Part shown: piece after piece, positions 8,411 through 56,123 of the stretch | Numbering within the stretch: position 1 is the first letter of the stretch | Layout: each line of letters begins with the position of its first letter | DNA from: Bacteroidetes bacterium 2013_40CM_41_45 | Lineage (GTDB): Bacteria > Bacteroidota > Bacteroidia > AKYH767-A > 2013-40CM-41-45 | DNA length: 64,000 nucleotides | Assembly (NCBI GenBank): GCA_002215675.1 | Contig: NGFH01000009.1 | Coordinates: 423,501 to 487,500, forward strand | Reading direction: 5' to 3' | Program-made: the position numbers and the translations under genes | The notes under the pieces: model-generated | Databases searched by the model: none | Seen by the model: only the letters and a program-made list of their open reading frames with translations | What the model was told of the DNA's origin: nothing

Positions 8411-9229
8411 TTATCCGAATCTGCCGGTGATATAGTTCTGCGTTTTTTTGTCTTTGGGGTTGGTGAAAATTTCCTTCGTGTCCCCGTATTCAATAAGTTC
8501 TCCCAGGTAAAAGAAAGCCGTTGTATCACTCACCCTTCCCGCTTGCTGCATGTTGTGCGTCACAATAATGATGGTGTAATTTTTCTTCAGTTCGTAAATG
8601 AGTTCTTCAATCTTTGCGGTTGAAATGGGGTCAAGTGCCGAAGCAGGTTCGTCCATAAGAACGACCGATGGCTCTACTGCCAAAGCGCGCGCAATGCAAA
8701 GCCTCTGCTGCTGTCCGCCTGATAATTCGAATGCGGATTTTTTCAATTTGTCTTTCACTTCATCCCATAGTGCGGAACGCACTAAGGACTGTTCAACCTT
8801 TGCCTGGATAAATTTTTTATCATTTACTCCGTTTACCCGCAATCCATATGCAACATTTTCAAAAATGCTTTTTGGAAACGGGTTTGGTTTTTGAAATACC
8901 ATTCCTACTTTTCTCCTAAGTTCCACTACATCCGTTTCCGGTGCATAAATATCTTCTCCGTCCACAATAATGTTGCCGGTAATTTTCACCCCGTCAATCA
9001 AATCATTCATGCGGTTAAACAATCTAAGATATGTTGACTTACCGCAGCCCGATGGACCGATTAATGCCGTAACCGTATTGGGAAAAATCTCCAGCGTAAT
9101 TCCTTTCAATGCCTGGAAGTCGCCATAAAATAAATTCACATACCTCGTGGCAATTACGAGGTCAGTCCTGACCGGTTTATTTATGATGTCTGATAAATTG
9201 TTAGTCATTAAATATTGATCATTGGACAT
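8411..9229 (-). CDS. pstB: Phosphate ABC transporter ATPase PstB
   Basis: 272 residues from ATG 9229; the ATG at 9208 (MTNNLSD) is an equally good start. Walker A is GPSGCGKS (58-65), followed by the Q-loop VFQKPNPFP, signature [15 protein letters not shown], Walker [13 protein letters not shown] and H-loop VTHNMQQ. It powers high-affinity phosphate import with PstA and PstC. The first ~9 residues are encoded by a heptanucleotide array, so the native start has probably been overwritten. It overlaps the upstream S23-type ORF, which separates it from pstA. Confidence 0.95.
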
Positions 9230-9244
9230 TAGTCATTGGTCATT
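9203..9244 (-). repeat. Six-unit heptanucleotide array (AATGACT-type)
   Basis: Six consecutive 7-mers, consensus AATGACT on the minus strand. The array supplies the last codons of the S23-type ORF, its TAA stop, and both candidate starts of pstB. A four-unit array at 9648-9675 has the opposite orientation. Confidence 0.85.
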
Positions 9245-9609
9245 GCAACAGAAGCTTTTGTAGTTCCAATTGACTTAATGTAGTTGTTTAACATTTTGCC
9301 TATGGACTCAATCAATAACAAAAATGATTCAAATTCGGAAGTGTCAACTAACTTTCTGTTATGTGCTTTTGTAAGCCAAGTTTTGGTTTCAAACAATGAA
9401 CCTCTTGAGTAATATCCAAAATTTTTTGCCTCCTTGAAGTGGTATCTTCCAAACCCTTCACTGAGATTTGCAGCGATAGAATCTGCCGCTCTTACTAGTT
9501 GTTTTCCTACGGTGTCCTTAGCAAAATAATCCCATTTCGCAACTATGTCCCAAATTTTTTCTCCTAAATCCATGGATAAATTGTACGTATTTAATTCTTC
9601 AAGTTTCAT
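9229..9609 (-). CDS. S23-type four-helix-bundle protein inserted in the pst operon
   Basis: 126 residues. It matches the 23S rRNA intervening-sequence (IVP/S23) family: helical throughout, with the hallmark [21 protein letters not shown] and a [13 protein letters not shown] segment. The family forms pentameric four-helix bundles of unclear function; some members lie in 23S intervening sequences and a relative (Avd) serves diversity-generating retroelements. Neither rRNA nor a reverse transcriptase is present here. It sits between pstA and pstB on the same strand and is bounded by inverted heptanucleotide arrays at 9203-9244 and 9648-9675, one of which encodes its last residues. It is an accessory insertion, not a phosphate gene. 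Confidence 0.85.
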
Positions 9610-9677: not shown

Positions 9678-10556
9678 TTAGTTCATCTTTACTTTATTTC
9701 CAAAATACTTTCTTAAGCCGTTAGCGCTGATATTTACTATGAGCACAATGGCTATAAGCACTAATGCAGTTCCATATGCCATGGGCCTCGATTCGGTGAT
9801 GTTGGTTCCACTGGTTGAAATTACATAGAGATGATAGGGGAGAGCCATGACCTGGTCAAAAATACTATGGGGAAGTTTGGGAAGAAAATATGCTGCTACT
9901 GTAAAAAGTATTGGTGCGGTTTCTCCTGAAACTCTTCCGATGGAAAGAATTAGCCCGGTAATAATGTTGGGAAATGCAATAGGCAACACTACTTTGCGTA
10001 TGGTTTGAAGCTTTGTTCCGCCGAGTGCATAGCTTCCGTGGCGGAAGGAATCGGGCACCGATTTAAGCGATTCTTCTGTGGTGCGGATTACGACAGGAAG
10101 TGTGAGCAGCCCAAGTGTAAATGAACCCGCAATGATGGAGTCGCCAAAACCTAATGTGTTTACAAAAAGCGACATGCCGAACAACCCGAATACAATAGAG
10201 GGGATGCCGGCAAGGTTATTTGTCATGAGCTTGATAAAGCGTTTCAACACTCCGTCTCTTGTATATTCATTGATGTAAATTGCAGAGAGCACTCCGACAG
10301 GGCCTGCAAACAGCATGCTTCCTGAAATCAAACACAGGGTCCCTACTATAGCTGGAAATATTCCTCCCTTTGTCATTCCCTCCTTGGGCATAGCAGTAAG
10401 AAATTCCCAACTGATAACTTTTATGCCATTGAAAATAATAAATGAAAGAATGATAAAAAGTATGGCGACAACCGTTATGCTTAATATGCGAAACAGGTTG
10501 AATGCAATTACCTGTTTGCGTTGTCTTGCCAGATGGAGCTTCCTGTCGGTTTTCAT
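9678..10556 (-). CDS. pstA: Phosphate ABC transporter permease PstA
   Basis: 292 residues with six predicted membrane segments. It has the permease EAA-type loop (GSYALGGTKLQTIRKVVLPIAFPNI) and the GRVSGETAPILFT motif. It forms the inner-membrane channel with PstC. Its start overlaps the arsC stop by 4 nt (ATGA), indicating translational coupling. Confidence 0.93.
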   Translation of the reverse strand: MKTDRKLHLARQRKQVIAFNLFRILSITVVAILFIILSFIIFNGIKVISWEFLTAMPKEGMTKGGIFPAIVGTLCLISGSMLFAGPVGVLSAIYINEYTRDGVLKRFIKLMTNNLAGIPSIVFGLFGMSLFVNTLGFGDSIIAGSFTLGLLTLPVVIRTTEESLKSVPDSFRHGSYALGGTKLQTIRKVVLPIAFPNIITGLILSIGRVSGETAPILFTVAAYFLPKLPHSIFDQVMALPYHLYVISTSGTNITESRPMAYGTALVLIAIVLIVNISANGLRKYFGNKVKMN

Positions 10557-10972
10557 TTTTTATTTTCAATCTTGCACAGGAGTTCTTTTACTTTCATCTC
10601 TATCAAATTGCGGATTACAATAAATTCATCCAACGGTAAATCTTTTGGGTCCGGAATATCCCAATCCTCCCGGTGTTTCGCAGGAAGATAAGGGCATTCA
10701 TCCCCGCAGCCCATTGTTATCACGTAATCCGGTTCACTGTTCCTGAAATCATCAGCAGATTTGGATGCGTGGTTAGTCAAATCATAACCCAGCATTTTCA
10801 TAGCTTCAATCGCTTTAGGATTTATTTTTCCTGACGGGCGCGAACCTGCACTGAAAGCATTTACAATTCCACGTCCGTGAATTTTTGCAAATGCTTCCGC
10901 CATCTGGCTGCGGTTTGAATTCTCTATGCAGACAAACAAAATACTTTTTTCGGGCAATGGCTGCGATTTCAC
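10553..10972 (-). CDS. arsC: Arsenate reductase / low-molecular-weight phosphatase family protein
   Basis: 139 residues. The P-loop C-x5-R is VCIENSNRS (Cys15, Arg21). Further cysteines at 89 and 93 in MGCGDECPYLP fit the thioredoxin-linked arsenate reductase mechanism, and an Asp-Pro motif lies near 105-109. ArsC reduces arsenate, a phosphate analogue, to arsenite. It is embedded between pstC (9-nt gap) and pstA (4-nt overlap), so it is expressed with the phosphate importer. That suits detoxifying arsenate brought in by PstSCAB. A protein tyrosine phosphatase role cannot be excluded. Confidence 0.85.
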   Translation of the reverse strand: MKSQPLPEKSILFVCIENSNRSQMAEAFAKIHGRGIVNAFSAGSRPSGKINPKAIEAMKMLGYDLTNHASKSADDFRNSEPDYVITMGCGDECPYLPAKHREDWDIPDPKDLPLDEFIVIRNLIEMKVKELLCKIENKK

Positions 10973-17510: not shown

Positions 17511-17585
17511 GTTATACGTTATATGTTAAATGTTATACGGAAGGTTGCTGGGCTTTACACTGTCGTATAACGTATAACACATAAC
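17511..17585. repeat. Inverted pair of heptanucleotide arrays
   Basis: Four GTTATAC-type units (17511-17538) and three GTATAAC-type units (17565-17585) are reverse complements of one another and can form a stem. They begin 3 nt after the kinase stop, so they could also act as a transcript 3' structure. Confidence 0.75.
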
Positions 17586-29848: not shown

Positions 29849-31162
29849 CTACAGCTTGATAATCTTTTTTCTTGTAACTTCTTTCTCTGTTCTTACCTCC
29901 ACAAAATAAATCCCACTCCCCAGACCGGAAACATTAATCTCGGATTTCTGATTTGTGATTTCCGATTTGTAAACTACTTCTCCCAACACATTGTAAATGC
30001 TCAAATGTTTTTTTTCAGCTATAGAAGTAGAAATCTCTATTGTTATGTTACTTGAAGTTGGATTAGGATAAACTTTAATCCCATCCATTTTTTTTGCAGG
30101 CAGTTCTTCTCCCAAATGCCATCCATCATACTTTGCAATATAATTTACCGTATCAGAGTTTATCATATTGAAGCCACCTGTAACGTAAAGCTCCCCGTTA
30201 AAAACAGCAACATCATTAATTGCGCCATTAAAAACATCGCTAGAAAAAGCAGCCCAGGTATTCCCATCCCACATTGCAATATTGCTGACGGGAATACCTC
30301 CAGCTGTGTCTATGATACCAACAGCAAACAATTTATCATCAATAACTCTAAGACCCCAAACATTTCCATGAAAACCAGTTCCTACTTGAGAAAAATTGGT
30401 CCCATCATATTTTACAAGGTAAGAATTGGGCCCCGATAAATAATTGCCTCCAAAATATAATTCATTATGATAAACCGCTGCTGCGTGAATTAATCCCCCA
30501 AAGTTTCCACCTACATCTACCCATGTATTTCCATTCCATTTCGCACATCCGCTTACAGTTCCGGTACTATCTGTAAAAGTACCAGCTATGTATAATTCAT
30601 TCTGATATATACATCCAACTTCAGTAATTCCACTTAAATATTGCGGTAAACCAATAGGCATCCAATTATTTCCATTCCAAATTACTGCCAACGGAGAATA
30701 GAAAGTTCCTACCGTGTCAAAAGCTCCCGTGCAATAAAGTAAATTATTGTATTCTAAGCATTCATAAGGTGCACCCCGAAATCCAATAGTAAGCGAATCC
30801 CAACCTACTCCATTCCATCTTGTAAAGCCATTAACTTTTACAGAATACGGAGACCAGTGTAAATAAATAAAAGCGCCTCCTACATATATATAATTTTGGA
30901 ATCGAGTTATAGTAATTACATTACCGGGTAATCCTCCTGCAAGGGTATCCCATATCATCCCATTCCATGCTGTTATAGACCTACTTTGATGCCCGTCGGC
31001 TGTACTGAAACTCCCGCCAATGAATAGATTATCAGAAACACTATCAGAAAATAATACATAACCATGAAAATCCAATCCGCTTCCAAGATTTATCCAGCTT
31101 TGAGAATAGGCATAACCACTAAACCAAAAGAAAATACAAAGTATGAAACAGTTTTTCTTCAT
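29849..31162 (-). CDS. Secreted beta-propeller protein with T9SS sorting domain (copy 1)
   Basis: 437 residues: signal peptide (to GYAYSQ), Rax2/kelch-like repeats (AWNGMIWDTLAGGLPG, LYFGGNYLSGPNSYLVKYDG) and a type A CTD (IKVYPNPTSSN to KKIIKL). The start overlaps the stop of the large SBBP gene by 4 nt. Within the CTD, residues KSEITNQKSEI are encoded by a heptanucleotide array (29941-29968); copy 2 lacks the array but has the same length there. It is probably made and exported together with the large upstream protein. Confidence 0.82.
   Translation of the reverse strand: MKKNCFILCIFFWFSGYAYSQSWINLGSGLDFHGYVLFSDSVSDNLFIGGSFSTADGHQSRSITAWNGMIWDTLAGGLPGNVITITRFQNYIYVGGAFIYLHWSPYSVKVNGFTRWNGVGWDSLTIGFRGAPYECLEYNNLLYCTGAFDTVGTFYSPLAVIWNGNNWMPIGLPQYLSGITEVGCIYQNELYIAGTFTDSTGTVSGCAKWNGNTWVDVGGNFGGLIHAAAVYHNELYFGGNYLSGPNSYLVKYDGTNFSQVGTGFHGNVWGLRVIDDKLFAVGIIDTAGGIPVSNIAMWDGNTWAAFSSDVFNGAINDVAVFNGELYVTGGFNMINSDTVNYIAKYDGWHLGEELPAKKMDGIKVYPNPTSSNITIEISTSIAEKKHLSIYNVLGEVVYKSEITNQKSEINVSGLGSGIYFVEVRTEKEVTRKKIIKL
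29941..29968 (-). repeat. Heptanucleotide array (AAATCNN) inside a T9SS CTD
   Basis: Four 7-mers AAATCNN on the minus strand, read as KSEITNQKSEI. The same word family occurs in prmC at 55587-55614. Confidence 0.85.
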
Positions 31163-35528: not shown

Positions 35529-36626
35529 TTACGTAATTTTAGGCAATAGGTTTACTGCTTCAATTTTCTTTTGGTCAATGATTTTTCCATAAATTTCAGT
35601 AGTCCTTACTTGCCTATGACCTAGTAATTTGGAGACAGTATAAATATCAACTCCATTCGAAAGTAATAATGTTGCATGTGTATGTCTGGCAGAATGAAAA
35701 GTAATGTTTTTAGTTATTCCTGCTTTCATCATCCAAAGGGAAAGTTTCAGATTCATGCCAGTTGAATACTTTAGTTGCGCAAATACTCTTTCATCTGGAT
35801 TTCCACTTTCTCCTAATAGCTCTCTCGCTTGAGCGGTTATCGGCAAATATTCCTGTTCGTTAGTTTTCTTCTGCTTAAAAACAATTTTCCAACCAGTTTT
35901 TTCAGAATATTCAATTTCAGACCACAGCAATTTACTTAAATCAGACCACCTTAATCCGGTTAGTACACTAAACATAAAAGCTTGTTTAAGTAAAGGATAA
36001 TTGCAGTCTGCTGCAGAAAGTTTTTTTACTTCTTCAAGAGTTAAATACTCTCTTTTAGATTCTTCTTGTTCGATTCCTTTTATTCGAGTTCCCGGGTTGT
36101 AATCGAGAAATCTGGACTCATACGCTTTATTGAGTACAGCTTTAAATTTACTGAAGTAAATAAATGCGGAATTTCGAGCTAGTTTTTTTTTGGCTTGTGA
36201 AATTTCCCCGTGAAGCAAATAGTCTTTAAAACCCTCTATTAACTTTTCGTTCAAATCTTGAACTGAACATTTGTTGTTTACATAATTCTTGAAATGACGA
36301 AAACAGTTTCGCCAAATAATATTATTGCCCTTACTTTCAAAATGTCCCTCTGTAAGTAGTTTAAAGTAGGCTAGAAAATCTTTCTTAGAATTTTCACCAA
36401 CCTTTTTGAAGCCATAAGTTCCATTCTGTAAATCTATTTGTCGTTTACCTTTTATGGCTTCGGCAAGTTGTAAAGCTTCCTTGTTTTGTTTCCTATCAAT
36501 TGGAGTTTTTGGTGAAACCAGGTACAAGTTTAAGTATTCATACTCACGCTTACCATTATTGTAAACGTCTAAGTAAAGACTGGTTTTACCTGTACCGTTT
36601 TTTCTTTTCCTGAGGGTAACTTTCAT
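35529..36626 (-). CDS. Tyrosine recombinase / integrase
   Basis: 365 residues from ATG 36626 (MKVTLRKRKNGTGK); an upstream in-frame start at 36662 would run through the attachment repeat. It has an N-terminal arm-binding region, an SAM-like core-binding domain (about 80-180) and a catalytic domain with Arg226 (TGLRWSDL), His311 and Arg314 (HSARHTHA), His337 (LLGHRQ) and Tyr346 (TEIYGK). It is complete, of the Bacteroidota phage/ICE integrase group. It sits at the right end of the element, directly beside the att repeat. Confidence 0.93.
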   Translation of the reverse strand: MKVTLRKRKNGTGKTSLYLDVYNNGKREYEYLNLYLVSPKTPIDRKQNKEALQLAEAIKGKRQIDLQNGTYGFKKVGENSKKDFLAYFKLLTEGHFESKGNNIIWRNCFRHFKNYVNNKCSVQDLNEKLIEGFKDYLLHGEISQAKKKLARNSAFIYFSKFKAVLNKAYESRFLDYNPGTRIKGIEQEESKREYLTLEEVKKLSAADCNYPLLKQAFMFSVLTGLRWSDLSKLLWSEIEYSEKTGWKIVFKQKKTNEQEYLPITAQARELLGESGNPDERVFAQLKYSTGMNLKLSLWMMKAGITKNITFHSARHTHATLLLSNGVDIYTVSKLLGHRQVRTTEIYGKIIDQKKIEAVNLLPKIT

Positions 36627-36633
36627 GTTGCTA

Positions 36634-36664
36634 ATTTGTTGCTTGAAGATTTTGAGCAACAAAT
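36634..36664. other. Inverted core-type site at the right att
   Basis: ATTTGTTGCT (36634-36643) and AGCAACAAAT (36655-36664) are perfect inverted 10-mers with an 11-bp spacer. This is the geometry of a tyrosine-recombinase core site, and it overlaps the direct repeat. Confidence 0.55.
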
Positions 36665-36800: not shown

Positions 36801-37886
36801 TTATCCCGATTTCGTTTTAAAAAATGTTATGGAGAATAATATTCCTAACACAATAAGAATGTAAGCGGTAAAAATAAAAGTGTGCACCGCCGTCCAAACC
36901 GGAATAAATTTTTCGATGCAAAGAACAAGCAGGATTGAAAACAAGGAAATGCCGATAAACGTGAGTGCCACCTGGCGGTCGCTGAAGCCGATATAAGCAA
37001 GGGAATGAGTGGTATGGTCTTTCCCGCCTACAAAGGGTGACTGCTTGCGAAGTATACGGTTAATGAATACAGTTGTGGTATCAACGATAGGTACAATAAA
37101 CACAAGGATAGGAATTATTACCTGGCGGAAATCGATAAGCTCTGACGGAGGAACGGTGCCAGCCTGCCAGAAAAATTTTATTCCGACGGCCGAGAGAAAC
37201 ACGCCGAGAAACTGGCTTCCCGTATCGCCCATGTAAATAACGGCAGGATGCCAGTTGTAAAAAAGAAATCCGATAATGGCGCCCAGCATACCGATGAGAA
37301 TAATCATATAAATACCCGAAAAATCACCGCCGAGAATCATGATACAAATGGCAGCAAGGATTACGGTAACCGAAAATGAGGATGCAATAGCATCCATGTT
37401 GTCGAGCATATTAAGGGCATTCATAATTCCGACCACCCAGAATACCGTCAGGAAGTAATTCAGCGGCATCCACGAACTTATATTAATCTGTATACCCGAA
37501 ACCATAAGAAGAATGCCGCAGGTTAATTGTGCATTGAATTTAAGAAACGGCTGTGTGTTGTAAGCATCATCGGCAAGGCCGAGCAGGAATCCGAGAATGC
37601 ACGCAACCAGCAATCCGAAAAATTCTTTATTGAGAAAAACTTTATTCACATCAAAGAAGATAGAATAGCATGCAACGGACAAAAGAAAAATGATGAAAAA
37701 AGAAAAGCCGCCCACCGACGGTTTTGAGCTGGAGCCCCAGCGAATAATTTTATCGTGAGAACGGATGCCGAGAGTGAAAAGAAACCGCAGGAACAGGCGG
37801 TTGATGAGAAAAGATAAGATGACACAGCCCACAAAGAATGCGCTGTAAACCAAAACGAGATACTGATTTTGCGTTAATGTTATCAT
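36801..37886 (-). CDS. Undecaprenyl-phosphate sugar-1-phosphate transferase (MraY/WecA family)
   Basis: 361 residues, about ten membrane helices. Family motifs: LLGLADDAYN (Asp106-Asp107), LNMLDNMDAI, VIYMGDTGSQFLG, and GGKDHTTHSLAYIGFS. It loads the first sugar phosphate onto undecaprenyl phosphate, starting an exopolysaccharide or O-antigen unit. It is the last gene of the minus-strand EPS operon, 1 nt after rfbC. The integrated element lies just downstream. Confidence 0.85.
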   Translation of the reverse strand: MITLTQNQYLVLVYSAFFVGCVILSFLINRLFLRFLFTLGIRSHDKIIRWGSSSKPSVGGFSFFIIFLLSVACYSIFFDVNKVFLNKEFFGLLVACILGFLLGLADDAYNTQPFLKFNAQLTCGILLMVSGIQINISSWMPLNYFLTVFWVVGIMNALNMLDNMDAIASSFSVTVILAAICIMILGGDFSGIYMIILIGMLGAIIGFLFYNWHPAVIYMGDTGSQFLGVFLSAVGIKFFWQAGTVPPSELIDFRQVIIPILVFIVPIVDTTTVFINRILRKQSPFVGGKDHTTHSLAYIGFSDRQVALTFIGISLFSILLVLCIEKFIPVWTAVHTFIFTAYILIVLGILFSITFFKTKSG

Positions 37887-37887
37887 G

Positions 37888-38448
37888 TTATATCATTTTT
37901 GTTTCAACCAAACCAGCTTCAAACTCCCTTAGCAGCGGAAGCCGGGCATCTTTTTCCGAGAGTATGGGATTAGAAATTCCCCAATTAATATTAAGGTCCG
38001 AATCATTCCAGCGGATTCCTTTTTCAGAATCTTTATTATACGGAGCCGTGCACTTGTAAACAACCACCGTATCATCTTCGAGCGCTAAAAAGCCATGCGC
38101 AAACCCGGGGGGAATCCACAACATAAGATTATTCTTTCCGCTGAGTGTTATGCTGAATGACTTTTTATAGGTGGAAGAATTTTTACGGATATCCGTTGCG
38201 ACATCAAGAGCTGAACCATTTACCACACGAACCAGTTTTCCCTGCTCAAAAGGAGCTATTTGAAAATGCATTCCTCTCAGCACATTTTTATGAGAACGTG
38301 ACTGGTTGTCCTGAACAAAGAGGTACGAAATTCCAGCCTGCAAAAAATCTTTTTCGGCATACGATTCAAAAAAATCACCGCGGCTGTCCGGAAATACTTT
38401 TGGTTCAATAAGCAATAAGCCTTCTATCGGAGTAGTTTTTACTTCCAT
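37888..38448 (-). CDS. rfbC: dTDP-4-dehydrorhamnose 3,5-epimerase
   Basis: 186 residues, standard length. RmlC motifs: EGLLLIEPKVFPDSRGDFFESY cut to PKVFPDSRGDFFE, QDNQSRSHKNVLRGMHFQ (catalytic His in RGMHFQ), LMLWIPPGFAHGFLAL, and VYKCTAPYNKDSEKGIRWND cut to YNKDSEKGIRWND. It makes dTDP-L-rhamnose precursors, but rfbA, rfbB and rfbD are not in the window. It is 11 nt after the wzc-like gene. Confidence 0.93.
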   Translation of the reverse strand: MEVKTTPIEGLLLIEPKVFPDSRGDFFESYAEKDFLQAGISYLFVQDNQSRSHKNVLRGMHFQIAPFEQGKLVRVVNGSALDVATDIRKNSSTYKKSFSITLSGKNNLMLWIPPGFAHGFLALEDDTVVVYKCTAPYNKDSEKGIRWNDSDLNINWGISNPILSEKDARLPLLREFEAGLVETKMI

Positions 38449-38459
38449 TTAGATACCGT

Positions 38460-40871
38460 TCAACTTTTAAAAATCATTTCCTTCAGCATTTCCCATCGCG
38501 AAAGTTTTTTCTTCGATTCATCATCGTAATATCCGTATCCGTAGCCGTAGCCATATCCATAGCCGTATCCATAGCCGTACCCATACCTGAATCTCGAAAG
38601 TTCGACACCATTGAGAACGACAGAAAGTTTTTTAATTTTATTTTCTTCAAGGAGCTTATTAAGATTTTGAATAAACATCCGCTTCGAATATCCAGCACGC
38701 AGAATATAGATGGGATAATCGGCTTTTTGAATCATATCCACACCATCGGTTACAATACCCACGGGGGGAGTATCAACAATAATAACATCGTAACGGGCCT
38801 TTAGATATTCTAAAAGCTCGTTCATCTTGCCGCTTATAATCAGCTCTGACGGATTGGGAGGAATAGGCCCTGCCGTAATGAAATCAAGATTAGCTAAACT
38901 GCTTTTCAGAATGCAATTGTCGGGAGTGTCTCTTCCGATAAGAATGGTGCTTACTCCGTTTATATTTTCAACATTAAACCCTATATGGATTTTAGGTTTG
39001 CGCATGTCAAGGTCTATGATGATAACTTTCTTTCCTGAAAATGCAATAACCCCTGCAAGGTTGATAGCTATAAATGTTTTGCCTTCTGCAGAGATGGTTG
39101 AAGTAACGGCAATAACCTTTGGGCCGGGGTCGTTGGAAATAAACTGAAGGTTGGTTCTCACCGAGCGGAACGATTCCGATATGGCCGACTTTGGATTTTT
39201 ATCCACGAGAAGCTGTGAGACCGGGATATCATGTTTGTATTTGGGAATAATTCCCAGCAGCGCGGCATCGGTATATAAGTTCACTTCATCCAGCGATGTT
39301 ATTTCGTTATAAAAAAGATAGCGCAGGAAAATAATGATGAACCCGATTACAAGGCCCACCAGCACCGTTGAACTGATTACCAGCATACGATTAGGGCTTA
39401 CCGGGAAATTGGCAAAGCTTGCCCGCTCCATCAGGAGATTATTCGAAACGATTCCCGCTTTGGTAACAAGAAACTCTGCTTTTTTCTGAAGAAGCGTTGT
39501 GTAAAAATTCTGGTTGATAGTGTACAACCGGTCGAGCCGCGTATATTCTCCCTGTAGCGCGGGCAATTTAAGATACTCGCCCTGTAGCGCCACTATCCTG
39601 TTCTGAATGGCTTGCTTCCTGTCTTCTGCAGCCTTCCGGGCATTAACAATCGCATTTAGCAATAAGTTTTTCTGTTCATTCATTTGCATGGTAAGCTGCT
39701 TTATTACTTCGTTTTCAGGCGTTGCTTCCATAAGGAGCTGGTCTTTTTGGTTTTGAAGCGTCTGCAGTCCGGAAATCAAAACACTTAAGGTTGGATCAAG
39801 AGTGGTTCCGGCAAGCGAAGGAACAAACTGCGTCAAGTCATTCTTTTCCAAAATGTTTTTTTCGAGTCTCGCAATATTGTAAAGCTCAATATCAACATTA
39901 AGCTTTTGTAAATTCAATTCATTTATTTTACCCAGGTTAAACTCTGCTTCTGCAGAGGGATTCATAATCATGTTAGAGGTCTTGAAATTTTCTAACGATT
40001 GTTCGGATTGAGTAAGCTCGTTATTAATATTGAGCAAAGAAGTATCTATAAAGCCGATAATATTTTCGGCACTCTGACTCAGGCGCTGAAGGTCATATTT
40101 AATAAATTCTTCTGCAATGGCATTGGCAAGGTCTGCGCACTTCTTCGGATTTTTATCACTCACCACTATCTGAATGGTTTGCGCGCTTTGATTTAACAGC
40201 TGAACCGTTACGCTTCCTATATACTTGCGGATGTTAGATTCGGGGGTGTTCATCACAAAGAAAAACGCGTCCTGCTTGAAGAGAGATTGTTGTTCCAGCA
40301 CCGACTTAATGTCTGTAATGCTCAGGTTAATATCGAACTGTGGAAACGAATGCCACTCTTCAGAATGAAACGTTCCGCTGTAGCGTTCTCCGTTAAAAAC
40401 ATAATTAATGTGGTACGAATCATGTCCCGGAAAATCTACGAATACCGGAACACCGAAAAACGAAGAATCAATTATTCTTACTTCCACCTTGAAAGGACAA
40501 TTGCCATAAAGTTCGTTAAGCAACACGGTGCCTTTGGCATAATAACTTATTTCCAACGGCAGTGTTCTCACCGCGCGCTCCAATATTATTTTAGAGCGCA
40601 GCAATTCTATATCGCCAACAAATTGGTTGGTTGCCTCATCGTAGGCGCGGTTGGTAGAAATATCAAGAATACTGCTCGCTTTATTTTCGGAACCTATTCT
40701 TAGTGTTGCTCTTGATTGATAGGTAGGCGGAGTATAACGCAGGTAGAGATACGCTGTTGTGATTCCGAGAGTAAGAAAGAAAAAGAGCCAGAAAAGATTC
40801 TTTCTTGCAATAAGCAGAAAGAGCTTCAGATCAAAATCCTCATTCAGGTTCGATATCTTTTTTTTCGGCAT
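38460..40871 (-). CDS. Wzc-like polysaccharide co-polymerase / tyrosine autokinase
   Basis: 803 residues. The N-terminal Wzz domain is flanked by membrane helices near 30-50 and about 500-520, with a long coiled-coil periplasmic region between. The BY-kinase domain has Walker A STISAEGKTF, Walker A' VIIIDLDMRKP and Walker B VIIVDTPPVG. The C-terminal tail has about eleven Tyr in an alternating Tyr-Gly run (codons 38526-38585). Autophosphorylation of such clusters controls chain length and export. Works with the wza-like lipoprotein encoded just upstream. Confidence 0.93.
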   Translation of the reverse strand: MPKKKISNLNEDFDLKLFLLIARKNLFWLFFFLTLGITTAYLYLRYTPPTYQSRATLRIGSENKASSILDISTNRAYDEATNQFVGDIELLRSKIILERAVRTLPLEISYYAKGTVLLNELYGNCPFKVEVRIIDSSFFGVPVFVDFPGHDSYHINYVFNGERYSGTFHSEEWHSFPQFDINLSITDIKSVLEQQSLFKQDAFFFVMNTPESNIRKYIGSVTVQLLNQSAQTIQIVVSDKNPKKCADLANAIAEEFIKYDLQRLSQSAENIIGFIDTSLLNINNELTQSEQSLENFKTSNMIMNPSAEAEFNLGKINELNLQKLNVDIELYNIARLEKNILEKNDLTQFVPSLAGTTLDPTLSVLISGLQTLQNQKDQLLMEATPENEVIKQLTMQMNEQKNLLLNAIVNARKAAEDRKQAIQNRIVALQGEYLKLPALQGEYTRLDRLYTINQNFYTTLLQKKAEFLVTKAGIVSNNLLMERASFANFPVSPNRMLVISSTVLVGLVIGFIIIFLRYLFYNEITSLDEVNLYTDAALLGIIPKYKHDIPVSQLLVDKNPKSAISESFRSVRTNLQFISNDPGPKVIAVTSTISAEGKTFIAINLAGVIAFSGKKVIIIDLDMRKPKIHIGFNVENINGVSTILIGRDTPDNCILKSSLANLDFITAGPIPPNPSELIISGKMNELLEYLKARYDVIIVDTPPVGIVTDGVDMIQKADYPIYILRAGYSKRMFIQNLNKLLEENKIKKLSVVLNGVELSRFRYGYGYGYGYGYGYGYGYGYYDDESKKKLSRWEMLKEMIFKS
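38526..38585 (-). repeat. Hexanucleotide repeat encoding the (YG)n tail
   Basis: Sixty nt, about nine imperfect copies of TAYGGN-type hexamers, encode nine Tyr-Gly pairs and a final Tyr-Tyr. The unit keeps the reading frame when copies are gained or lost. Confidence 0.85.
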
Positions 40872-40877
40872 CTTAAA

Positions 40878-41627
40878 TTATTTGCGAACAAGAGCAACAA
40901 CCAGAATTATGGTAGTGAGCAATCCCACAACCGGTGATAGCTGAACAAGCACTGTTTGCCCGATATTTCTGGTCGGCTCAATATAAATAATATCATTGGA
41001 TTGTAGCTGAAGGTCTGCAGCTTTCATTCCTTCTACGGTTGAAAGGTCTATAAGATATATTTTTGGGTTCTTTAAATCGCCCCGGATAAGCTTTATCTTA
41101 TATGCTTTACCCGTTTCTTTTATACCTCCTGACTGGGCCAGGGCCTCTACGAGCGTCATATTGTCTGAATTCATCTGAACAATTGAACCACTTCCGCCCT
41201 CACCATTAAAAATATATACCTTGCGATTTGCAACTCTAAGTACAACAAACGGGTTGTTAAAATAAGCGCTGTATTTTTCCTCAAGCATTTTTTCTGCCTC
41301 CCTTACCGAGTACCCTTTTAATGAAACCCTTCCAAGCTGAGGCAACTTGGCAAAGCCGTCTTTTTCAATAATATACTTTACCGTACTGGTAAGTGCAGAA
41401 GTCTGGCCGCCGGTAACGTCAACTAACTTATATCCATTGTTGCTGTAAATAAGCAGTTCAAGTTGGTCATATTCAGCAAGTTTATATTCACTTTGAACAC
41501 GTTTTGAGACGGAATCGGGCTGAGTAAATTCATAGCCCTTTCCAGTCTTGAACATTACACTTGGGTTGAATGTTCTGCATGAATAAAATATTGAAATAGT
41601 AAAAAAAAGCAGAACAATTCTTCTCAT
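40878..41627 (-). CDS. Wza-like polysaccharide export lipoprotein
   Basis: 249 residues. Lipobox Cys17 (TISIFYSC). A poly-export domain (about 45-125: YKLAEYDQLELLIYSN, VSLKGYSVREAEKMLEEKY) is followed by one SLBB domain (VYIFNGEGGSGSIVQM, TLVEALAQSGGI). It ends in a C-terminal hydrophobic helix instead of the Wza amphipathic one. It forms the outer-membrane export channel. Six nt upstream of the wzc-like gene. Confidence 0.88.
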   Translation of the reverse strand: MRRIVLLFFTISIFYSCRTFNPSVMFKTGKGYEFTQPDSVSKRVQSEYKLAEYDQLELLIYSNNGYKLVDVTGGQTSALTSTVKYIIEKDGFAKLPQLGRVSLKGYSVREAEKMLEEKYSAYFNNPFVVLRVANRKVYIFNGEGGSGSIVQMNSDNMTLVEALAQSGGIKETGKAYKIKLIRGDLKNPKIYLIDLSTVEGMKAADLQLQSNDIIYIEPTRNIGQTVLVQLSPVVGLLTTIILVVALVRK

Positions 41628-41682: not shown

Positions 41683-42885
41683 TCAAACTTGGATAGTTTT
41701 CTTCGAAAGTAATTCATTGTAAAGCAGAGACATATCCCTTACAAGGCGCTTATAGCTGAAACGCTCACTAACAAATTCCTTCCCTTTAGCCTGCATTTTT
41801 TTTCTTAGCGCTTCATCTTGTATCAACAGCAGCATATTTTGCGCAAAAGCCTGCGAATTACCGGTAGCTGAAAGTAGGGCCGTTTCTCCTTTTATTACAA
41901 CATCATCTATACCTCCCACCGAAGTGGCAATTACGGGCTTTCCCGCCGCCTGGGCTTCGATAATGCTTACAGGGGTGCCTTCGTTTAATGAAGTCATTGC
42001 AATTATATCAAGCCCCGCAATGGCTGTATCTATTTTCTTAATCCACGAAGTAAAAACCAATTTAGCATCAGGGTTATTTTTTTCGGGAGTTGAAAAAGGA
42101 ATGCGTAATGAGGAGGCAACGGATTCTATTTTATATCTGTCTTCTCCATCCCCGATAATAAATGCCTTGACAGGGGAAGTCGTTTTTTCCAGAACAATTT
42201 TCAGAGCGTTAAGAAAAAGAGTATGATTTTTAACTGGAACAATCCTGCCGATGATACCTATTGCAATTGTATGGTCCGATAAACGGTAACTTTCTCTGAA
42301 TTTTTTTCTTTTCAGTTCAGAGTCGATAGAAAATTTTGCCAGGTCGAACCCCAATGGAATCACCCTGATTTTTTCCGGGCTGCAGACGGGATAATCTATG
42401 CTTAGTTCCTTTTTCTGTGTTTCGCTCAGTGCTATGATGGCATCGCTGCGCCCGGCGAGATATTGCTCTATCTTCAGAAAAATTTTTGTCTTATATGAGC
42501 TGAAATACGAATGAAAAAAATGTCCGTGAAAAGTGTGCACCAAAACAGGGACTTTATTTCTTATTGCAGCAACACGCCCTAATGCGCCTGCCTTGGCGGC
42601 ATGAGTATGTACGATATGTGGCTTAAACGTTTTTATGATGGAATTGATTTTATTGTATGATATTATGTCTTTGAACGGGCTGATGTCGCGGCTCATTTCA
42701 GGAATGATTACCGGTTCCACACCAAGTTCTCTAAGGATAAATTCTGAACTTTCTTCCGTTGCCTGCTTTACCCCGGCAATAAGAATCGTTTCAAATTCAG
42801 GAGCAAGATATTTTGTGAGATAAACGGCATTATAGGTAGGGCCTCCGAGATTCAAGCGATTTATAATTCTAACGATGCGGGGCAT
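41683..42885 (-). CDS. Family 4 glycosyltransferase
   Basis: 400 residues with a GT-B fold. N-terminal motifs are RIINRLNLGGPTYNAVYLT and HTHAAKAGALGRVAA; the C-terminal donor site has GIIGRIVPVKNH, MTSLNEGTPVSIIEAQAAGKP cut to EGTPVSIIEAQAAGKPV, and ATSVGGIDDVV. It probably adds a sugar to the lipid-linked EPS unit. First gene of the operon GT4, wza-like, wzc-like, rfbC, wecA-like. Confidence 0.87.
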   Translation of the reverse strand: MPRIVRIINRLNLGGPTYNAVYLTKYLAPEFETILIAGVKQATEESSEFILRELGVEPVIIPEMSRDISPFKDIISYNKINSIIKTFKPHIVHTHAAKAGALGRVAAIRNKVPVLVHTFHGHFFHSYFSSYKTKIFLKIEQYLAGRSDAIIALSETQKKELSIDYPVCSPEKIRVIPLGFDLAKFSIDSELKRKKFRESYRLSDHTIAIGIIGRIVPVKNHTLFLNALKIVLEKTTSPVKAFIIGDGEDRYKIESVASSLRIPFSTPEKNNPDAKLVFTSWIKKIDTAIAGLDIIAMTSLNEGTPVSIIEAQAAGKPVIATSVGGIDDVVIKGETALLSATGNSQAFAQNMLLLIQDEALRKKMQAKGKEFVSERFSYKRLVRDMSLLYNELLSKKTIQV

Positions 42886-49217: not shown

Positions 49218-49245
49218 AATGACTAATGACTAATGGCTAATGACC
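49218..49245 (+). repeat. Four-unit heptanucleotide array (AATGACT-type)
   Basis: Four exact-period 7-mers between the converging T9SS cargo gene and lpdA. The word family is the same as in the pair flanking the S23-type ORF at 9.2-9.7 kb. Confidence 0.85.
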
Positions 49246-55274: not shown

Positions 55275-56123
55275 ATGAGCTTATCGGAGCTGCGAACAAA
55301 ATTTCAGAAGGAACTTTCAGGAAAATATCCTGAAGGTGAAACCGATACCATCTTCTTTTTACTCCTTCATCATTATACAGGAATTAATAAAACTAATTTT
55401 TTTAGCAACGGAAAGCAATTATCGGCTGATGATGCTGAAAAGCTAAGCAGCGCATTGCAGCGGCTGCACGAGAATGAACCCGTTCAATACATCATGGGCG
55501 AAACAGAATTCTGCGGATTAAAAATAAAAGTAAATCCTTCGGTACTTATCCCTCGTCCTGAAACGGAGGAACTGGTTGAATTAATTAAATCTCAAATCTC
55601 GAATCCCAAATCTGAAATACTGGATGTATGCTCGGGAAGCGGTTGTATCGCTATCGCACTGAAAAAATATTTCCCTCAATCATCGGTTACTGCCTTTGAG
55701 CTTTCGCCCGAAGCCATTCGCACAGCAAAAGAAAATGCGTCATTCAATAATACCGAAATACATTTTATCCGCGGCGATGTTTTTAACCCTTCGGCAGAGC
55801 TGGAGAAATATTCGTTTGATTTAATTGTAAGCAACCCTCCGTATGTGCTGCCTTCTGAAAAGGACAGCATGGGACCCAACGTATATGACCACGAGCCGGA
55901 AGTGGCGGTGTTCGTACCGGAAAATAAACCGCTCATGTTTTATGATGCGATTTCAGATTTAGCATCTAAAAGATTAAAACCCGGAGGTACGCTTTGGTTC
56001 GAGTCTGATGAAGACCGTGCCGATGATGTAGGCGAATTGGTACGCAGGAAAAAATTTTCAGATGTAAAAGTTCATACTGACCTAAGCGGAAAGAAGAGAT
56101 TTATAAGCGGCCAGTCTGTGTAA
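55275..56123 (+). CDS. prmC: Release factor glutamine methyltransferase PrmC
   Basis: 282 residues. SAM-binding EILDVCSGSGCIAIAL, catalytic VSNPPYVLPSE and substrate loop IPRPETEELVE. It methylates the GGQ glutamine of RF1 and RF2. Residues KSQISNPKSEI just before the SAM motif are encoded by a heptanucleotide array (55587-55614), an addition in a normally variable linker. The enzyme otherwise looks complete. Confidence 0.94.
   Translation: MSLSELRTKFQKELSGKYPEGETDTIFFLLLHHYTGINKTNFFSNGKQLSADDAEKLSSALQRLHENEPVQYIMGETEFCGLKIKVNPSVLIPRPETEELVELIKSQISNPKSEILDVCSGSGCIAIALKKYFPQSSVTAFELSPEAIRTAKENASFNNTEIHFIRGDVFNPSAELEKYSFDLIVSNPPYVLPSEKDSMGPNVYDHEPEVAVFVPENKPLMFYDAISDLASKRLKPGGTLWFESDEDRADDVGELVRRKKFSDVKVHTDLSGKKRFISGQSV
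55587..55614 (+). repeat. Heptanucleotide array (AAATCNN) inside prmC
   Basis: Four 7-mers (AAATCTC twice, GAATCCC, AAATCTG). It encodes a heptad peptide nearly identical to the one in the T9SS CTD at 29941-29968. Confidence 0.85.

Follow-up and report, generated by a model that had tools for sequence, protein, structure and literature searches.

In the octamer of E. coli K30 Wzc, each C-terminal tail enters the active site of the neighbouring subunit and is phosphorylated starting at its C-terminal end; a pocket holds the i-2 tyrosine in readiness, and once four phosphorylations have taken place the octamer falls apart (available parts of PMC11986026 and PMC8285477). The YxY pattern of the tail was named a molecular ratchet by the authors. 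Work on E. coli mutants indicated that the regulatory function of Wzc depends on how far the tail is phosphorylated and on no tyrosine in particular, and a D28-K701 ion pair was described as the signal coupling (accessible text of PMC11986026).

The kinase described here is encoded in a 64,000-nucleotide stretch of DNA from Bacteroidetes bacterium 2013_40CM_41_45, the whole of which is called the window. It resembles the E. coli K30 and K-12 proteins (PDB 7nhr, 9r62, 3la6; available parts of PMC11986026 and PMC8285477) in its domain order, Walker motifs and C-terminal YxY tyrosine cluster. However, E. coli Wzc has five target tyrosines (708, 713, 715, 717 and 718) and the YxY pattern of the K30 protein is broken at N711, whereas the window kinase carries an unbroken ladder of 11 (portion available of PMC11986026). 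The pocket residue differs as well, E675 in the K30 protein and F733 in the window kinase.

Streptococcus pneumoniae CpsD/Wze is also a BY-kinase with a Tyr-Gly repeat tail, but its unit has three residues and is repeated few times, whereas the window kinase has a two-residue YG unit in nine pairs (PMC8519296, partial text). In pneumococcal 19A there are 3 or 4 YGX repeats depending on the subtype, 4 being found in one subtype (same partial text, PMC8519296), whereas the count is constant between species in the window's family, f1. The pneumococcal kinase is formed by two chains, CpsC and CpsD (PMC4574921, in the part available), and the window kinase by one. Porphyromonas gingivalis Ptk1 is likewise a Bacteroidota BY-kinase with a tyrosine cluster and with PHP and LMW phosphatases. 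Its cluster has 6 tyrosines, fewer than the 11 of the window kinase, and php1 lies beside ptk1, whereas the PHP-type match of the window genome is on another contig (accessible sections of PMC8863745).

The kinase gene and its surroundings

The Wzz, GNVR and AAA_31 (AAA/CobQ-type nucleotide-binding) domains of the 803-residue protein were all matched above their cut-offs, and the NCBIfam model for polysaccharide biosynthesis tyrosine autokinases gave 177.2 bits with a cut-off of 108.05 (Table 1). The two chain-length modules precede the kinase domain in one chain, and the C terminus carries a tyrosine cluster with YxY spacing, as in PCP-2a BY-kinases. The closest solved structures were those of E. 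coli Wzc (E 7.4e-51), while the score with the E. coli Wzc equivalog of NCBIfam (NF008568) was 222.1 bits, below the curated cut-off of 1068. Domain matches, profile matches and the alignment with E. coli Wzc all agree with the preliminary description, which had proposed a Wzc-like kinase with its tail at the tyrosine cluster. A scan of genome contigs matched one locus, in a Flavobacteriales bin, at 39% identity.

With a Wza-like export gene on one side and rmlC-like and glycosyltransferase genes on the other, the gene most likely encodes the protein that regulates chain length and export for a polysaccharide cluster. It is an ordinary kind of protein, and its acceptor tail is unusually long and regular. 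An acidic and then basic end comparable to that following the ladder was recognized by eye in many relatives. A phage-integrase-type gene lies just past the polysaccharide genes, at 35529-36662 on the minus strand.

Table 1. Positions in the window of the kinase gene, its parts and the adjoining polysaccharide genes
Feature	Position	Strand	Evidence
wzc-like gene (chain-length determinant and bacterial tyrosine autokinase), 803 aa	38460..40871	-	PF02706 Wzz, PF13807 GNVR, PF13614 AAA_31, TIGR01007
Kinase domain, residues 530-767 (as searched)	38571..39284	-	Walker A K598, A' D620/D622, B D700, F733
Tyrosine ladder (YG)9YY, residues 763-782	38526..38585	-	codon listing; unit number same in 11/11 family f1 genomes
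Tail end beyond the ladder, acidic and then basic, DDESKKKLSRWEMLKEMIFKS	38463..38525	-	translation
Wza-like polysaccharide export gene, directly upstream of the kinase gene	40878..41627	-	PF02563, SLBB_2
rmlC-like gene (dTDP-4-dehydrorhamnose 3,5-epimerase), directly downstream of the kinase gene	37888..38448	-	PF00908, TIGR01221
Glycosyltransferase family 4 (WecA/MraY type) gene	36801..37886	-	PF00953
Group 1 glycosyltransferase gene, polysaccharide cluster of the kinase gene	41683..42885	-	PF00534

The orthologues, 129 in number, represent 34 families and 67 genera within the class, 38 coming from a first genome set and 91 from a second. The first set held 40 genomes with matches, two of which gave no orthologue (G036, with no orthologue-grade match, and G038, whose match lacked the tail). 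In the second set, 99 of 197 sampled class genomes passed a threshold of E 1e-160 and 98 had no match at that threshold; G120, which is truncated, was excluded together with the second copy of G198. Four orthologues (L030, L203, L207, L208) were removed from the tree, spacing and purity counts because the end of the tract could not be defined, leaving 125. Three of these four are the entire sample of genus g64, and their tails look variable. The tract of L011 was parsed two residues too long owing to an extra upstream Tyr and was set by hand to 20 for the length counts.

Residues E566, R569, G597, K598, T599, D620, D622, R624 and D700 were identical in all 125 aligned orthologues. Among them are what we take to be the residues of Walker A (K598, T599), A' (D620, D622) and B (D700) and of the E..R oligomerisation motif (E566, R569), all of which are thus present throughout. 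The tyrosine pocket was a different matter. In the sequence alignment E675 of the E. coli K30 pocket fell without gaps on F733, and the acidic residue of the K30 ratchet was absent from this position in the orthologues (of 125, 118 have Phe, 6 have Tyr and 1 has a gap). Another 56 sequences, for the most part paralogues and including L034, L202 and L212, carried His (23), Tyr (15), Phe (13) or other residues (5) at the position, and none carried Glu or Asp. S. aureus CapB has a Glu at the equivalent position when the alignment is read by eye. Basic residues stand just before F733, with K or R at position 730 in 124 and at position 731 in all 125 orthologues. Additionally, Lys701 of E. coli aligned with S759. 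Because E675 is replaced by F733, one part of the published ratchet mechanism may differ in this kinase.

Matches to the LMW-PTP or CpsB/CapC families were sought next to the kinase gene and none was found there. Elsewhere in the genome there was an LMW-PTP match (L213, C2:309423-309854, 128.1 bits) and, on a contig other than that of the kinase gene, a CpsB/CapC-type match (C6:239796-240392, 162 bits), so that candidate reset enzymes exist. A second Wzc-like gene (L002, G000:C2:300096-302369) lies about 7 kb from the LMW-PTP match and has the short tail YGYGYY; more generally, other Wzc copies in the f1 genomes have ladders different from those of the orthologues. In the window itself, a small ORF at 10553-10972 on the minus strand matched the LMW-PTP family and is located between phosphate-transport permease-like genes. 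From the reading of these sequences, on which the transport label also rests, it is perhaps an arsenate-reductase-like protein.

The ladder and its constancy in family f1

Residues 763-782, YGYGYGYGYGYGYGYGYGYY, comprise nine Tyr-Gly pairs and one Tyr-Tyr, 11 tyrosines in all, and are encoded by positions 38585-38526 of the minus strand; the codon listing reproduced exactly the location and the count given in the preliminary description. At the peptide level the tract clearly exceeds what chance would give, a judgement for which no probability was calculated. As a DNA microsatellite it is weak. The hexamers, in order, are TATGGG, TACGGC, TATGGA, TACGGC, TATGGA, TATGGC, TACGGC, TACGGA, TACGGA and TATTAC. 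The nine YG pairs are therefore written with five different hexamers and one of the eight neighbouring pairs of units is identical, so the tandem hexamers of the earlier account hold for the consensus and fail for the exact sequence. The longest exact match run within the 60 bases was 8 bases at period 6 and 14 bases at period 12. Tandem Repeats Finder gave 78% matches and a score of 52 at period 6, and its top-ranked period was 30, with a score of 93. Taken by itself, the synonymous codon order of the window tract was indistinguishable from a shuffle.

Simple-sequence-repeat phase-variable genes are a general kind of system, with which this locus shares a tandem repeat within a surface-polysaccharide gene. 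The window tract differs from them in lacking a perfect array, in having a unit length that keeps the frame and in showing no length variation among its f1 relatives. When several identical tandem units were looked for in it, no more than two identical neighbouring hexamers were found. Elsewhere in the window, imperfect arrays with a period of 7 or its multiples, each with a different unit, were observed at 1485-1519, 9201-9245, 17511-17539, 29943-29970, 49218-49244 and 55587-55618.

The f1 sample comprised 11 genomes of 8 genera, one genome per species. The pattern (YG)4Y gave exactly six overlapping matches in the f1 orthologue of all 11, which corresponds to (YG)9Y in each, and the ladder peptides were also read directly in every genome. 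The unit number thus did not vary among these relatives. The seven full-length f1 relatives share 54-57% identity with the window protein, and over the 55 pairs of tracts an average of 61% of the 20 codons differ (range 30-85%). Parsimony on the f1 tree required at least 96 base changes inside the 60-base tract, all of them synonymous third-position changes, and inferred no amino-acid replacement and no change of length or unit number. Against 3.3 length changes expected from the rate outside the family, none was observed (Poisson P 0.038), a modest result from a test picked after the data had been seen. The step number of nine YG pairs and a YY is probably held by purifying selection in f1. 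Because the same number of pairs occurs in every related species examined, the tail is probably a fixed phosphorylation series and not a slipping switch. A repeat that looks slippery as protein has kept the same number of units in 8 genera, although its codons were shuffled.

The reading that we prefer, with a probability of roughly 0.72, is that the tract serves a Wzc-like (PCP-2a) kinase as its phospho-acceptor tail, an unbroken YxY ladder whose step number in f1 is under selection and which does not act as a slippage switch. Tyrosines at every second residue would provide an uninterrupted track with the Tyr-x-Tyr spacing that the ratchet published for E. coli Wzc uses. By analogy with that protein, each tail would reach into the active site of its neighbour in a kinase octamer and be phosphorylated stepwise, beginning at the C-terminal end, until the ring disintegrates, and phosphatases would then reset the phosphorylated tail. 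We infer an effect on polymer length as well. Elsewhere in the class, outside f1, ladders have lengthened and shortened as species diverged, for the most part in steps of an even number of residues.

Ladder length and codon order across the class

The tracts of the 125 orthologues ranged from 8 to 44 residues and from 5 to 21 tyrosines, so that no single number is needed in general. Tract length was even in 106 of them. The gap between successive tyrosines was 2 in 1188 of 1427 cases and 1 in 128, mostly the final YY; the other 111 gaps had other values. Parsimony gave 54 length changes, of which 39 were even, the commonest being changes of two (15) and four (12) residues. Orthologue lengths that differ mostly by even numbers of residues indicate that whole-unit, in-frame changes occur between species, and in this respect the preliminary description was borne out, with 10 of 23 genera varying; in f1, no such change was inferred. 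The strict pattern (YG)3YY(D/E) was found phylum-wide in 4 of 198 genomes, all in the window's class and one of them the window's own. This narrow pattern is therefore uncommon even within the class.

The six species sampled from genus g31 (family f14) have ladders of 26, 28, 28, 30, 32 and 32 residues. In one of these (L184) the unit TATGGT is repeated nine times without a change, which makes the array a genuine hexanucleotide microsatellite, and a congener (L192) has an array of TATGGT/TACGGA dodecamers. Five or more identical tandem hexamers were present in 2 of the 125 tracts. When length-variable and length-constant genera were compared for excess tract purity (n=23), no difference was found (Mann-Whitney P 0.83). 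Tract purity as the reason why some genera vary is accordingly unsupported.

Codon order was counted in 115 tracts, 15 of 130 having been taken out as near-duplicates. Identical neighbouring Gly codons were too rare (251 of 829, with 308.2 expected; z -5.4), as were identical neighbouring Tyr codons (387 of 829, with 432.5 expected; z -3.8), and Gly codons at a distance of two units were identical too often (338 of 714, with 264.6 expected; z +6.5), all of these z values being optimistic because the tracts are related to each other. The lag-2 excess of Gly codons was also present in other families and in paralogues. Furthermore, two-unit and three-unit repeats were over-represented in all tracts pooled and in hand-picked length-variable families. 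Within the 11 f1 tracts, identical neighbours are weakly depleted, with 19 of 88 for Gly (28.0 expected, z -2.3), 45 of 88 for Tyr (44.5 expected) and 8 of 88 for whole hexamers (14.3 expected, z -1.9).

Ordinary coding DNA from 57 sources (the window and loci longer than 4.5 kb), with the YG tracts masked, was used as a control. Codons two apart were identical in 152 of 430 cases for Gly (132.6 expected, z +2.05) and in 121 of 188 for Tyr (108.6 expected, z +1.88). Since both z values are positive, there is no general depletion in coding DNA, which speaks against the possibility that the alternation merely mirrors ordinary coding sequence. The lag-2 excess may reflect duplications of 12 and 18 bases. 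The depletion of identical neighbours could be due to avoidance of slippery arrays or could be a footprint of the 12-base duplications; the shuffles fix the composition, so an excess at lag 2 depresses lag 1 and the two are not fully separable.

Alternative readings and biological meaning

A bolder reading, which we regard as doubtful, makes the ladder a counted device. Its step number would set how many phosphorylations occur before the ring falls apart, the steps would be read by the aromatic or His pocket with its basic neighbours, and the count would be protected by alternating synonymous codons. It is in keeping with this idea that L184, with its pure array, belongs to a genus whose count changes. 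However, purity did not predict length variation over the 23 genera, and the alternation is weak in the f1 tracts.

The possibility was also considered that the repeat is under low constraint, the tail needing only to be tyrosine-rich and the constancy in f1 reflecting shared inheritance with no selection on the count. The lengths do vary freely across the class, and the rate test reached P 0.038 only. Moreover, among the 23 genera with at least two kept species, 13 are constant anyway, two of them in f1, and same-genus species pairs had equal lengths in 84 of 136 cases; together with the P value, these counts speak against a special status of f1. Yet f1 is old enough for 61% of the 20 tract codons to differ, and no replacement has occurred, whereas S, T, N, H or Q occur within the ladders of other families. 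We therefore consider low constraint an unlikely explanation.

The preliminary description had proposed that the hexamer array slips and that the number of acceptor tyrosines shifts unit by unit, tuning polysaccharide length in a population. Such slippage is possible in g31, where ladders differ by whole in-frame units and L184 offers nine TATGGT repeats, and arrays of this kind do occur in the class (the 2 tracts of 125 mentioned above). The number of YGX units also differs among pneumococcal 19A subtypes (PMC8519296, partial text). At the window locus, slippage tuning was rejected in view of the scrambled codons (one identical neighbour in eight), the constancy of all 11 f1 genomes and the lack of any unit change despite at least 96 synonymous substitutions, and purity was unrelated to length variation over the 23 genera. 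The description had itself set a constant repeat number against its proposal, and between species, over the 8 genera of f1, the number was constant. As an account of the ladder, slippage is very unlikely.

It is highly implausible that the YG array acts as a self-assembling sticker by which the kinase rings are clustered or ordered, with phosphorylation in a secondary role, because the array occupies the place of the BY-kinase phospho-acceptor cluster, even though an alternating pattern would suit a beta strand and amyloid-like fibrils are formed by the synthetic heptapeptide GYGYGYG, whose critical concentration is above that of its sister peptides (available part of PMC10510724). Among the accessible papers containing the string GYGYGYG, none deals with a BY-kinase as judged by titles, which is not proof of absence.

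The preferred reading is thus that of an acceptor ladder with a selected step number in f1, and the points of interest are the class-wide series of ladders, the alternation of codons and the aromatic pocket. Ladders with 5 to 21 tyrosines, for the most part in YxY register, occur naturally and are a ready series with which to probe step number against polymer length. If the ladder were indeed a counted device, the step number would work as a dial that evolution can turn from one species to the next but that stays locked inside each species.
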